Source of the DNA: Candidatus Paceibacterota bacterium
Lineage (GTDB): Bacteria; Actinomycetota; Actinomycetes; Nanopelagicales; Nanopelagicaceae
Length of the DNA: 64,000 bases
Assembly: GCA_035530615.1 (NCBI GenBank)
Contig: DATKUL010000003.1
Coordinates: forward strand, 248,001 to 312,000
Reading direction: 5' to 3'
A program made the translations under genes and the position numbers. The notes under the pieces are model-generated. The model did not search any database. It saw only the letters and a program-made list of their open reading frames with translations, and was not told the origin of the DNA. This document shows, in pieces, positions 57,421 through 63,714 of this stretch (the stretch's first letter is position 1; the number at the start of each line of letters is the position of its first letter).

Positions 57421-58494
57421 GTGAGCCTCTCTATCGGAATTGTCGGAATGCCCAACGTGGGCAAGTCCACCCTTTTTAATGCCCTGACCAAGAACAATGT
57501 CCTGGCGGCGAACTACCCATTTGCCACGATCGAGCCCAACGTGGGGGTCGTAGGCGTCCCAGATCCTCGTTTGGCGAAGTTGGCCGCGATCTTCGGCTCC
57601 CAGAAACTCCTGCCTGCCGTGGTCTCTTTCGTGGATATCGCGGGGATCGTCAAGGGTGCCTCCGAAGGCGCCGGTCTTGGAAATCAATTCCTGGCAAATA
57701 TCCGCGAGACCGATGCCATCTGCCAGGTCATCCGCGTTTTTGATGATGGCGATGTCATCCACGTCGAAGGTCGGGTCGATCCGGCCAGCGACATGGAGAT
57801 CATCAATACAGAATTAGCGCTCGCCGATCTTCAAACCATCGAAAAGGCCCTTCCGCGTATCGAGAAGGAAGCGCGCACAAATAAGGAACGCCAGTCTGTA
57901 GTCGATGCAGTCAAGGAAGCCGAGAAAGTTCTCAACTCTGGCAAGCCACTTTCCAGTAGTGGCGTGGATCTTGAGGCGCTCGCCGAACTGCACTTGATGA
58001 CTGCCAAACCATTTCTTTATGTTTTCAATGTTGATGCAGCGGAGTTGGCAGATCCCGCACTTCGCGAGAAGTTGGCAGCACTGGTTGCTCCAGCCGAAGC
58101 GATCTTCTTAGATGCAAAGACTGAAGCAGAACTCGCCGAACTCAGTGATGAGGACGCACTCGAACTTCTCAATTCAATTGGGTTGAGTGAGCCAGGACTT
58201 GCAACTCTGGCACACGTTGGATTTCGAACACTTGGGCTACAGACCTACTTAACTGCCGGTCCAAAAGAAGCACGCGCATGGACGATCCACGTGGGAGATA
58301 CTGCACCGGTTGCTGCCGGAGTCATTCATACTGATTTCCAAAAGGGGTTTATTAAAGCCGAGGTTGTTTCCTTCGATGATCTTGTTGCGGCCGGTTCTAT
58401 GACAGAAGCGAAAGCGCGCGGAAAAGTGCGCATGGAAGGCAAGGAATACGTCATGCACGATGGCGACGTCGTGGAGTTTAGATTCAACGTTTAA
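57421..58494 (+). CDS. ychF: YchF/Obg-like ATPase
   Basis: YchF (OLA1) is a ribosome-associated P-loop ATPase of the TRAFAC class linked to stress control. The 357-residue protein starts at GTG (57421) with [22 protein letters not shown], then [30 protein letters not shown] and the adenine-favouring NVDAAE in place of NKxD. The C-terminal TGS domain reads [19 protein letters not shown] and ends RFNV. Third positions look richer in G and C than those of the surrounding genes, as for a well expressed gene. Confidence 0.96.
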
Positions 58495-58528
58495 TACATT
58501 TTCGACAAACCAGCGGAAGTTGGAATAA

Positions 58529-58560
58529 GAAGAGCCTTGGGATTTCTCCCAAGGCTCTTC
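58529..58560. terminator. Bidirectional terminator hairpin of ychF and RNA element A
   Basis: GAAGAGCCTTGGG (58529-58541) and its exact complement (58548-58560) give a 13-bp stem with a six-base loop, 34 bases after the ychF stop. On the minus strand it is followed by TTATTCC and ends RNA element A; on the plus strand it can end ychF, though CCTGTC follows. Confidence 0.75.
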
Positions 58561-58572
58561 CCTGTCGCGACC

Positions 58573-58687
58573 CCAAGGCAGAGCGCTTGTTTAAGGAGTT
58601 ACGCCTTTCTCCGCGCTTCACCGTTTCCTTGTAAACATCAAGGCGAGGGAACTATGGCATAAATACGCGTTACTCGGAGTAACAATT
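58573..58687 (-). ncRNA. Candidate structured RNA element, copy A
   Basis: This 115-nt block is about three-quarters identical to copy B at 59068-59181. No protein frame is shared. In plus-strand terms the conserved stems are GGAG/CTCC (58595-58598 with 58609-58612), GTTT-CCTTG/CAAGG-GAAC (58623-58631 with 58639-58652) and GTTACT-CGG-AGTAAC (58669-58683). The invariant core ACTATGGCATA lies between the last two. On the minus strand a terminator hairpin follows at once, so that strand is favoured for the transcript. Family and role are unknown. Confidence 0.5.
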
Positions 58688-58774
58688 GATTGAACCCGAG
58701 CAGGCGCAGTCATGGTCGCATTGTGGAGGGGCTCACATAAGCCGCCTTGCCGAAGGCTTTCTGCGCACAGAATA

Positions 58775-58804
58775 AAGGACCCCGAGGGGCACCTCGAGGT
58801 CCTT
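58775..58804 (-). terminator. Terminator downstream of the tRNA-like gene
   Basis: On the minus strand AAGGACCTCGAGG and CCTCGGGGTCCTT form a 13-position stem with one C-A mismatch and a four-base loop, followed by TATTCTG. It lies 64 bases beyond the 3' end of the tRNA-like gene and resembles the hairpin after RNA element B in stem sequence. Confidence 0.7.
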
Positions 58805-58868
58805 GCTCAACTTCCCTAACTTCTAGATCGATACCAATAGATCAGTCTTGAGAATTTGAGGCTGCGGA

Positions 58869-58940
58869 GTTGCCGACGGGAATCGAACCCGCCCCGGCAA
58901 CTTGGTGAAAGTTGCAATGCGATCACTACACCACGGCAAC
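58869..58940 (-). tRNA. tRNA-like gene with abnormal anticodon arm (probable tRNA pseudogene; Glu or Val)
   Basis: The acceptor arms GTTGCCG and CGGCAAC pair perfectly and the T arm GCGGG-TTCGATT-CCCGT is regular, so this is of tRNA origin. The anticodon arm is odd. With a CAACT/AGTTG stem the loop TTCACCA reads CAC (Val), but then base 37 is C and the D stem fails. With GCAAC/GTTGC the D stem (GTGT/GCAT) forms, but the loop TTTCACCAA has nine bases and would hold TTC (Glu). The D loop lacks the usual GG. The discriminator is T and no CCA is encoded. Confidence 0.7.
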
Positions 58941-59025
58941 ACCGCGCGCTAAGAATCGAGCAAATTGTCAGCGCGGCCGTAAGACATGACCACTCCTGTG
59001 CGTGCATCGTTAGTGTGTAGAAAGA

Positions 59026-59056
59026 CGAAAGACCTCGATAATCTCGAGGCCTTTCG
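59026..59056 (-). terminator. Terminator of RNA element B
   Basis: CGAAAGaCCTCGA (59026-59038) and TCGAGGcCTTTCG (59044-59056) form a 13-position stem with one mismatch. On the minus strand TCTTTCT follows, making it a good intrinsic terminator for element B 11 bases upstream. Confidence 0.75.
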
Positions 59057-59067
59057 TTTCGGCAACT

Positions 59068-59181
59068 CCAAGGCTGAAAGCGTTTTAAGTGGAGTAACCA
59101 ACTCCGGCACTCAACCATTTCCTCGACAAAATCGAGGCGGGGAAACTATGGCATATATTCACGCTACTCGGAGTAACAATT
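59068..59181 (-). ncRNA. Candidate structured RNA element, copy B
   Basis: This 114-nt block is the paralogue of copy A. The GGAG/CTCC stem is at 59091-59094 and 59102-59105. The central hairpin is CCTCG/CGAGG (59121-59125 with 59133-59137), where one T-A pair of copy A is replaced by C-G, a compensating change. The outer TTT/AAA turns a T-G pair of copy A into T-A. The hairpin near 59163-59177 has one mismatch. ACTATGGCATA is unchanged. The homology runs from CCAAGGC to AACAATT. A terminator follows on the minus strand. Confidence 0.5.
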
Positions 59182-59291
59182 TTCCGAACGGTTAGATAGG
59201 TGCATTTACGACTAGCGGGATTCCCTAGCCATTGCCATAGGCAACGCTTTCGATCAAGCCAAACGCTGAAGAAAGATGTGAAAGTGTGACC

Positions 59292-59978
59292 TTACTTGAT
59301 TATCTTCTTCAAAATATGCGGGAGTTCAGACATGTGGTCAATAACATGCATGCCAGCGAACTCAAGTTGCTCTCGTGGAGTAACTCCGCCCGCATAGGCA
59401 ATTACTTTCATGTTTGCAGCAAGCGCTGCTTGAACACCAGCCACACTATCCTCAACAACAACACATTCAGACGGCTCATACCCCAGAGTCGACGCTGCGT
59501 GGATGAATAGATTTGGTGCAGGTTTCCCAAGTGCAACCTCTGAGGCGCTAAATATGCGACCTTCAAATCGTGTCAAGAGTCCAGTTAGTCCTAGCGTAAA
59601 GCGCATCTTCTCGTGACTCCCATTGGAAGCCACACATGAGGGAATCTTGATCAAGTCGAGGGCATCAACAATTCCAGCAACAGGACGAAGATCTCGAAGC
59701 ATCGCCTCCCGATAAAGGTGTTGGTACGAATCTTCCCAATCGTCGGGCAATTTATAGCCGATATGTTTCTCGACAACAGTAAGAAAGTGACCGTGAGAAC
59801 GACCAACGAATCTCTCGATAATCTCGTCTTGTTCGATCTGCCACCCTAGATCGGCCAGAACAATCTCATCGACTGCTATTGAGATTACCTCGCTATCAAC
59901 AAGTACGCCATCGCAATCGAAAATGACAAGGCCTGGCATACCTGCGGGGAACTTCGAAGGATCGCGATCTTGGGTCAC
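59292..59978 (-). CDS. HAD-family phosphatase (beta-phosphoglucomutase/phosphatase-like)
   Basis: The 228-residue protein has HAD motif I as VIFDCDGVLVDSEV (nucleophile Asp and acid/base Asp), motif II as the Ser of CVASNGSHEK, motif III Lys in GKPAPNLFIHAA and motif IV as CVVVEDSVAGVQAA. The small helical cap between I and II marks subfamily IA, which covers sugar-phosphate phosphatases and phosphomutases. The GTG at 59978 is the first start; an ATG at 59939 just before PGLVIFDCDG is equally possible. The substrate is unknown. Confidence 0.9.
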   Translation of the reverse strand: MTQDRDPSKFPAGMPGLVIFDCDGVLVDSEVISIAVDEIVLADLGWQIEQDEIIERFVGRSHGHFLTVVEKHIGYKLPDDWEDSYQHLYREAMLRDLRPVAGIVDALDLIKIPSCVASNGSHEKMRFTLGLTGLLTRFEGRIFSASEVALGKPAPNLFIHAASTLGYEPSECVVVEDSVAGVQAALAANMKVIAYAGGVTPREQLEFAGMHVIDHMSELPHILKKIIK

Positions 59979-63091: not shown

Positions 63092-63502
63092 TTAGAAATC
63101 TAGACGCTCCACTGCCTGCTTGGTGATGTTGCTTATCAACTCAAAATCCTTATCAACATGCAGAACTATGAGTTCACATTTTTCTGCTGTTGCGGCAACT
63201 AAGAGGTCTGGAATTGAGGGAGCTCTATGTTGTCCAAGGTCCGCTAATTGTTGGAGAACATCCCAGGCTCTCTCCTCAATAGTTGGCGAAAGTTTTTCAA
63301 TCCGCATTTTTGAAAGTGGAAGGCTTGCAAAAGATGTGAGAAGTTCATTTGCCGATCTTGCTGAATAACCAATTTCGAGGCGGGTAATTGAAGAGAGATG
63401 GACTTGGCCAGCATCAATTCGCGATGCCCAGAGTTGGGCATCGGGCGTAGTTGCCAGACGAACGAGGGCTGATTTATCTATCAACCAACCGGTTATCGCC
63501 AC
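63092..63502 (-). CDS. vapC: VapC-type PIN-domain toxin
   Basis: The 136-residue PIN-domain ribonuclease has the acidic quartet at Asp9 (WLIDKSA), Glu43 (TRLEIGYS), Asp99 (SIPDLLVAA) and Asp117 or Asp119 (VDKDFE). Length and motif spacing are those of VapC toxins, which cut tRNA or rRNA. It overlaps the antitoxin gene by ten bases, the usual coupling. No truncation is seen, so it should be active if expressed alone. Confidence 0.93.
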   Translation of the reverse strand: MAITGWLIDKSALVRLATTPDAQLWASRIDAGQVHLSSITRLEIGYSARSANELLTSFASLPLSKMRIEKLSPTIEERAWDVLQQLADLGQHRAPSIPDLLVAATAEKCELIVLHVDKDFELISNITKQAVERLDF

Positions 63503-63714
63503 GCATTCTCCATCACCTGTTCATTCGAAAGGTCTGGGAGCAACACAAGAAGAGAGGCTAGATGCTTCTCCGTAACTGACTCCGTGCCCATACGAACTTC
63601 CTGCGTCAGTGTGCGACGTACGTATTCAACGCGCGAAAGACCAAGTAATGCGGCCTTATTTTCTAATGCTGCCATTACCTCTGGAGTTAAATCTCTAATA
63701 AGTAAATCTGCCAT
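63493..63714 (-). CDS. vapB: VapB-type (FitA/ribbon-helix-helix) antitoxin
   Basis: The 73-residue protein begins MADLLIRDLTPEVMAALENKA, a ribbon-helix-helix of the FitA/Arc type in which the first strand binds operator DNA. SRVEYVRRTLTQEV completes the motif, and the C-terminal part, ending NEQVMENAWR, should wrap the toxin's active site. GGAGG precedes the ATG. It is first in the two-gene unit. Confidence 0.92.
   Translation of the reverse strand: MADLLIRDLTPEVMAALENKAALLGLSRVEYVRRTLTQEVRMGTESVTEKHLASLLVLLPDLSNEQVMENAWR

Follow-up and report, generated by a model that had tools for sequence, protein, structure and literature searches.

A small RNA complementary to an adjacent orphan tRNA-like RNA suggests a two-RNA system in freshwater Actinobacteria

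The 64,000-nt stretch of DNA analysed here (the window) carries a small RNA (sRNA) gene, E2, whose predicted product is complementary to the mature form of an orphan tRNA-like RNA encoded beside it. By comparison we established the genes, the fold of the sRNA, the fold of the tRNA-like and a locus-specific complementarity between them that is kept by double changes; the genomes surveyed were mostly fragmented assemblies. The pairing of the two RNAs is very well supported by their sequences. We consider it probable that E2 is dedicated to its neighbor, most likely as its antidote. Transcription of the sRNA, binding in the cell, inhibition, toxicity of the free tRNA-like, and a toxin-antitoxin or conditional-release role are what we infer from these comparisons.

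A preliminary description of this DNA had reported two paralogous blocks (58573-58687 and 59068-59181) at about three-quarters identity. Global alignment bore this out, with 89 of 118 columns identical (75%) and a score of 56 against a shuffled maximum of 6.5; identity rose to 80% in the conserved 75-nt part. The central hairpin also proved sound, since P1 keeps its pairing through U-A to C-G changes. By contrast, the blocks had been taken whole as RNA, and about one third of each is promoter; the RNA is the remainder plus a hairpin terminator. Minus-strand terminators had been proposed after each block. Strong hairpins do stand there, but their U-tracts are weak and a simple scan calls neither on the minus strand. 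Nor is it right for the second block that no gene lies downstream, because a tRNA-like gene begins ∼85 nt past the E2 terminator on the same strand. The complementarity of the E2 tail to this odd tRNA is the decisive feature, and was absent from the earlier account. The minus-strand order is a HAD-family hydrolase gene (59292-59978), E2, the tRNA-like gene and the paralogous sRNA gene E1, beyond which lies the 3′ end of the opposite-strand gene ychF.

Table 1. Features of the E2/tRNA-like/E1 locus, in window coordinates
Feature	Position	Strand	Remarks
E2 -35-region element	59163..59177	-	GTTACTCCGAGTAGC; family consensus ACTCYGNGTAAC
E2 extended -10	59145..59153	-	TGCCATAGT
E2 class I sRNA core	59060..59139	-	P1 hairpin, AAAU, P2 stem around P3 hairpin, 3′ tail; R1 93.5 bits
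E2 P3 apical loop UUGGUUA	59095..59101	-	Opposite tRNA-like loop UCACCAA; 6/7 pair, mismatch at position 34
E2 tail UGGAGUUGCCG	59060..59070	-	Complementary at every position to CGGCAAC-U-CCA, i.e. the acceptor 3′ strand, discriminator and CCA of the 58866-58940 tRNA-like
E2 hairpin terminator	59025..59057	-	By inspection
Orphan tRNA-like gene	58866..58940	-	ARAGORN: tRNA-Val cac; nearest ordinary tRNA is tRNA-Gly(CCC), 76% identical
tRNA-like 9-nt anticodon loop UUUCACCAA	58902..58910	-	
tRNA-like acceptor 3′ strand CGGCAAC, discriminator U, CC	58866..58875	-	Predicted target of the E2 tail
Terminator-like hairpin 3′ of tRNA-like gene	58775..58804	-	
E1 -35-region element	58669..58683	-	GTTACTCCGAGTAAC
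E1 extended -10	58651..58659	-	TGCCATAGT
E1 class I sRNA core	58566..58645	-	R1 73.4 bits; tail UGGGGUCGCGA, loop GGCGUAA
E1 hairpin terminator	58529..58560	-	14-bp perfect inverted repeat

Two parts of the blocks previously assigned to the RNA, an invariant ACTATGGCATA and a hairpin ending AGTAACAATT, were reinterpreted as the minus-strand extended -10 (TGCCATAGT) and -35-region element (ACTCCGAGTAAC), respectively. The arrangement of ACTCCGAGTAAC, about 10 nt and TGnCATAnT recurs on the minus strand at all further loci from the E1 search in the genome, and the RNAs that come after it differ between loci. Of 66 related loci, 48 carry a loose pattern for it upstream, always at constant spacing; a scrambled control gave 0. 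Because of this constant spacing and the different RNAs behind it, we treat the palindrome and the 11-mer as promoter DNA. The palindrome was rejected as an RNA part: its outer positions vary without pairing, and it too is found before different RNAs. The -35-region element may serve as an operator or, alternatively, as a sigma-specific -35. Some 20-40 nt upstream of it, E2 and six other loci (L003, L004, L007, L035, L036 and L046) share a further conserved box, CCCRCTARTCGTTAATRCRCC.

The sRNA fold was derived from an alignment of 16 copies from the genus over 83 columns. It consists of P1 (CCUYG/CRAGG), AAAU, a 10-bp P2 around P3, a tail of the form UUGG-A/G-7 nt, and the hairpin terminator. 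Paired states occupy 91.6% of cells, with 45 double-change cells (17.6 when shuffled) and a covariation of 0.436 (0.238 when shuffled); structures slid along the alignment pair only 36-48%. Covariation is strong in three helices, and RNAalifold, unaided, returned essentially the same structure. At E1 and E2 (window 58529-58650 and 59025-59139) as well as at other class I loci, arms of the terminators often repeat the CCTYG/CRAGG of P1, a sharing that would let P1 and terminator arms pair with each other instead.

A covariance model of this sRNA (R1) found four copies in its own genome: E2, E3 (C2:204282), E1 and a divergent copy (C2:537218). The actinobacterial search proposed in the preliminary description yielded further copies with covarying pairs, confined to the host's family. 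Copies were present in 23 of 201 genomes of the order, some of the weakest (near E=0.03) being spurious. When 297 genomes of the class were scanned, hits outside the family were only weak, resembled high-GC coding sequence and had no tRNA nearby. The sRNA was found only in the host's family, of freshwater Actinobacteria. Within it the distribution of sRNA/tRNA-like pairs is patchy, with paralogues and remnants. None of the 4227 Rfam families matched at gathering score in the window, and a relaxed search at E≤10 within 58480-59300 gave nothing relevant, so the Rfam match that had been named as grounds for abandoning the idea did not appear. The earlier reading of the two blocks as independent, terminated, paralogous small RNAs outside described families is supported. 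The msiK RNA (RF01747, 60.8 bits) at C1:86590-86649 of the same genome (L072 2591-2650) is ordinary.

Most sRNA copies are followed, ∼100-190 nt downstream, by a tRNA-like gene. The tRNA-likes form a cloverleaf with four covarying stems (94.8% of cells paired, 56 double-change cells) and a CCA-type end whose discriminator is mostly U. Their anticodon loop, UUUNRCCAA, has 9 nt in 64 of 66 cases and 8 nt in the other two. As drawn, they lack the 7-nt loop with purine 37 of a canonical elongator tRNA; an extra closing U-A pair would alternatively give a 6-bp stem and a 7-nt loop, in which form the tRNA-like might decode normally. The nearest ordinary tRNA, tRNA-Gly(CCC), has the loop UUCCCAA, and the tRNA-like is, by this resemblance, an orphan tRNA-Gly derivative. 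Because the host genome possesses a normal set of tRNA genes, ordinary ones for tRNA-Val and tRNA-Gly among them, the tRNA-likes are extra.

A tRNA-like model (R2) found about 60 copies in ∼45 of 296 genomes of the order, above an ordinary tRNA-Gly background at ∼72 bits. Over 84,980 species, the exact tRNA-like pattern occurred in 12 contigs, all from freshwater or groundwater Actinobacteria; viral contigs gave no match. One strain with a complete genome, IMCC19121 (CP015605), carries a pair (L165 5681-5934). At about -60 from the tRNA-likes, just past the sRNA terminators, we noted a conserved YCCACA, which in several is the DnaA-box-like TTATCCACA. HAD hydrolase paralogues lie upstream of both the E2 pair (window 59292-59978) and the E3 pair (L009 999-1685), probably reflecting duplication of a whole segment. 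Elsewhere in the window, two small minus-strand ORFs (63092-63714) were judged by eye to be a VapC (PIN)-like toxin and its antitoxin; tRNAs are a frequent cleavage target of VapC toxins.

Complements of the acceptor 3′ strand, discriminator and CCA were sought in the 330 nt upstream of each of 66 tRNA-likes, without use of the sRNA model. Thirty-six loci had a site starting with UGG and making 11 of 11 pairs (once 10 of 11), at -107 to -185; these sites are the tails of class I sRNAs. Altogether 65 of the 66 tRNA-like genes have an sRNA gene about 100-190 nt upstream, 36 of class I (the E2 locus among them) and 29 of a second class. Among ordinary tRNAs of the host genome none had an 11/11 upstream site, the sole such entry being the partner of E3 itself. 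In 21 distinct acceptor variants, all 168 variable positions of the class I tails pair with the cognate, whereas 20,000 permuted pairings averaged 122.6 and reached at most 143. Such permutation tests leave shared ancestry in; the count of distinct double changes does not depend on ancestry alone. Over 24 distinct rows, the tail/acceptor helix is 99.5% paired, with 52 double-change cells (14 when shuffled) and a covariation of 0.827, against 0.267 for shuffled and at most 0.117 for slid controls, where pairing fell to 21-45%. This makes it as strong as the acceptor stem of the tRNA-like itself (97.0% paired).

The match extends to the single-stranded end. UGGN is complementary to NCCA at 36 of 36 class I loci, and the discriminator covaries with the tail, as A-U and, at L187 and L219, as G-C. 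In most tRNA-like genes UCC is succeeded by G, whereas the sRNA carries UGG; the tail therefore matches the enzyme-added CCA, that is, the mature tRNA. Watson-Crick pairs with the acceptor 3′ strand number 155 of 168 for the sRNA tail and 145 of 168 for the tRNA-like's own 5′ strand, and at L109 the tail makes 7 of 7 pairs where the 5′ strand makes 4 of 7, which argues for a tail fitted to the 3′ strand and against a mere 5′-strand copy. The duplex of the tail with acceptor and NCCA has a mean computed energy of -18.9 kcal/mol, as against -9.1 for the tRNA-like's own stem. The class I P3 loop matches the anticodon loop at loci with U34, G34 or A34 but places U or C opposite C34, and this mismatch leaves the acceptor contact firmer than anticodon masking.

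The 30 loci lacking class I have the same promoter element before a much shorter RNA. In 29 of them this class II sRNA is antisense, over 13-16 nt, to the anticodon loop together with the 3′ strand of its stem, pairing with its cognate at 201 of 208 variable positions (permutation maximum 161) and making no acceptor contact. The remaining locus, L073, is the one tRNA-like of the 66 without an sRNA; its acceptor stem is mispaired and it lies near a truncated sRNA copy (L004). Class I sRNAs without a nearby tRNA-like are more numerous, comprising E1 and at least six others. A targeted pattern for a tRNA-like fitting the E1 tail UGGGGUCGCGA and loop GGCGUAA found none in its own genome; E1 is a paralogue of E2 whose partner was lost or not found. 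L111 (G004:C143) parallels E1 beside E2: an orphan class I sRNA, whose tail does not match, adjoins a class II sRNA that fits the tRNA-like. At L071 6660-7360 (C2:536660-537360), the gene order is reversed relative to other pairs: a tRNA-like (C2:536684) with an insertion, loop TTAACCA and an encoded ACCA lies upstream of two sRNA genes with the same promoter element (sRNA at 537218). The second of these has the loop UGGUUAA, a 7-nt complement, and the tail UGGUGGCCCU, a bulged match.

Inhibition is the simplest mechanism that fits these data. We propose that the sRNA would be transcribed from its own promoter and end at its own terminator, and that its tail, composed of UGG, the discriminator complement and 7 nt, would bind the cognate tRNA-like at its mature 3′ end. 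The tail would nucleate on the single-stranded NCCA toehold and then displace the 5′ strand of the acceptor stem, and the P3 loop would pair with the enlarged anticodon loop, masking the anticodon. A tRNA-like so bound would be neither charged nor usable in decoding; class II sRNAs would act by anticodon masking alone. When free, a tRNA-like with an enlarged loop would have the potential for frameshifting or miscoding, which makes an antidote role for the sRNA plausible. From sequence we take the sRNA to be the likely controller and the tRNA the conserved unit, since the tRNA keeps its fold while the architectures of its partners differ.

T-box riboswitches are defined by a UGGN that pairs with tRNA NCCA and a second site that pairs with the anticodon region (RF00230; TBDB, PMC7778990). 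Both contacts have counterparts in class I, the anticodon one less certainly, raising the alternative of a tRNA-binding leader that senses the uncharged tRNA-like and controls read-through into its gene. The terminator between the two genes would fit such autoregulation, as would the CCUYG often shared by P1 and terminator arms, which could permit switching. We nevertheless regard this sensor as unlikely. Within 58480-59300 no T-box came up in Rfam even at E=10, tail and terminator do not overlap, and pairing continues for 7 nt inside the acceptor stem; in class II the acceptor is not contacted at all. The reversed pair of the host genome, and partners on the opposite strand in groups B and C (below), are awkward for read-through, and partly conserved sequence upstream of the tRNA-likes looks as if they have a promoter of their own. 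The class I sRNA is not a T-box member: it is an independent, terminated RNA that no regulated gene of amino-acid or aaRS type follows (only a tRNA-like or nothing), with no antiterminator, no RF00230 match, pairing across the whole acceptor 3′ strand, and a dedicated adjacent orphan tRNA as partner.

The roles could instead be exchanged, the tRNA-like being a decoy or sponge for an sRNA that actively regulates other targets. Orphan sRNAs such as E1 do exist and might have targets of their own, but we hold this reading to be quite improbable, because the tRNA-like keeps a full cloverleaf with four covarying stems while its partners vary (class I, class II and opposite-strand units), which suggests the tRNA as the conserved functional unit. 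Still less credible is an origin of both RNAs as pseudogene debris, duplicated tRNA pieces with complementarity as a by-product. Some copies are degenerate (L004, L073, L109), but covariation contradicts this origin, with 52 double-change cells in the intermolecular helix, and the tail departs from the 5′ strand in ways that better its pairing with the 3′ strand; the promoter motif and conserved fold of the sRNA also speak against it. Least probable of all is a primer-template pair in which a polymerase extends the annealed tRNA-like 3′ end: a UGG-starting tail complementary to a tRNA 3′ end and a loop contact with the anticodon loop do recall retroviral initiation complexes, where the primer tRNA contacts the template by its 3′ end and anticodon loop, but the host genome has no reverse transcriptase (PF00078) and class II has no such site.

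Returning to the sRNA as antidote, its loop-loop and single-strand complementarity with locus-specific divergence resembles that of RNAI/RNAII-type cis-encoded antisense RNAs, which form kissing loops. Here, unlike in those systems, the predicted target is a mature tRNA, non-encoded CCA included, and the genes lie side by side without overlap. We know of no other sRNA dedicated to one adjacent tRNA gene through complementarity to the mature CCA end and anticodon arm, and of no other conserved bacterial tRNA family with enlarged anticodon loops. The toxin RNA of CreTA ties up a normal tRNA, and the CreTA antitoxin works by repressing transcription via CRISPR Cascade (PMC8501985). Shared with CreTA and other RNA-RNA toxin-antitoxin modules are two co-encoded small RNAs, one proposed to neutralise the other, with a tRNA as the attack point; the difference is that the proposed toxin here is the tRNA itself and the proposed antidote pairs with it directly. 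Extra anticodon-loop nucleotides are also found in frameshift-suppressor tRNAs such as SufB2 (PMC7803779), and mutant tRNAs with 9-10-nt anticodon loops have been studied for frameshifting (reviewed in PMC5009743). These are mostly mutants or isolated cases, natural loop-size exceptions being few (yeast and sponge mitochondria and one phage group; PMC5009743), whereas the tRNA-likes are a conserved natural family of a bacterial lineage with a dedicated sRNA.

Two further groups of orphan tRNA-likes were noted in the host genome, both multicopy and called tRNA-Val aac/cac and gac: group B (C2:533677, C2:534123, C2:780552, C3:446174 and C3:313489) and group C (C3:455986, C2:925048 and C3:444971). 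A unit on the opposite strand, beside a hairpin and 108-173 nt upstream, is antisense to the anticodon arm; on the same strand 13-16 of 19 positions are identical, and ordinary tRNAs reach at most 12. This hints that the principle exists here in independent versions. At L144 and L151, tRNA 3′-end fragments (TTCGAATCCCTGCGGGCGCAC and similar) occur upstream of the group C units, right after protein stop codons, resembling integration sites.

At 65 of 66 loci, then, an antidote-type RNA is complementary to, and encoded with, the proposed toxin RNA. Nearly no tRNA-like lacks an sRNA and many sRNAs lack a tRNA-like, which may be the trace expected of a toxin-antitoxin module. Tentatively, these pairs could form a class of toxin-antitoxin modules with a natural non-triplet tRNA as toxin and, as antitoxin, an sRNA acting by acceptor toehold displacement, anticodon masking or both, possibly with more than one origin in one family (the Gly-derived group A, and probably B and C). 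Searches of the open literature brought up no account of sRNA/tRNA-like pairs of this kind, though one may exist. We read the evidence as suggesting a two-RNA system, not described before, whose sRNA would switch off a potentially harmful tRNA. If confirmed, it would present a tRNA in a regulated or toxic role and a natural case of RNA strand displacement from an NCCA overhang, and questions of natural non-triplet decoding would become directly testable.
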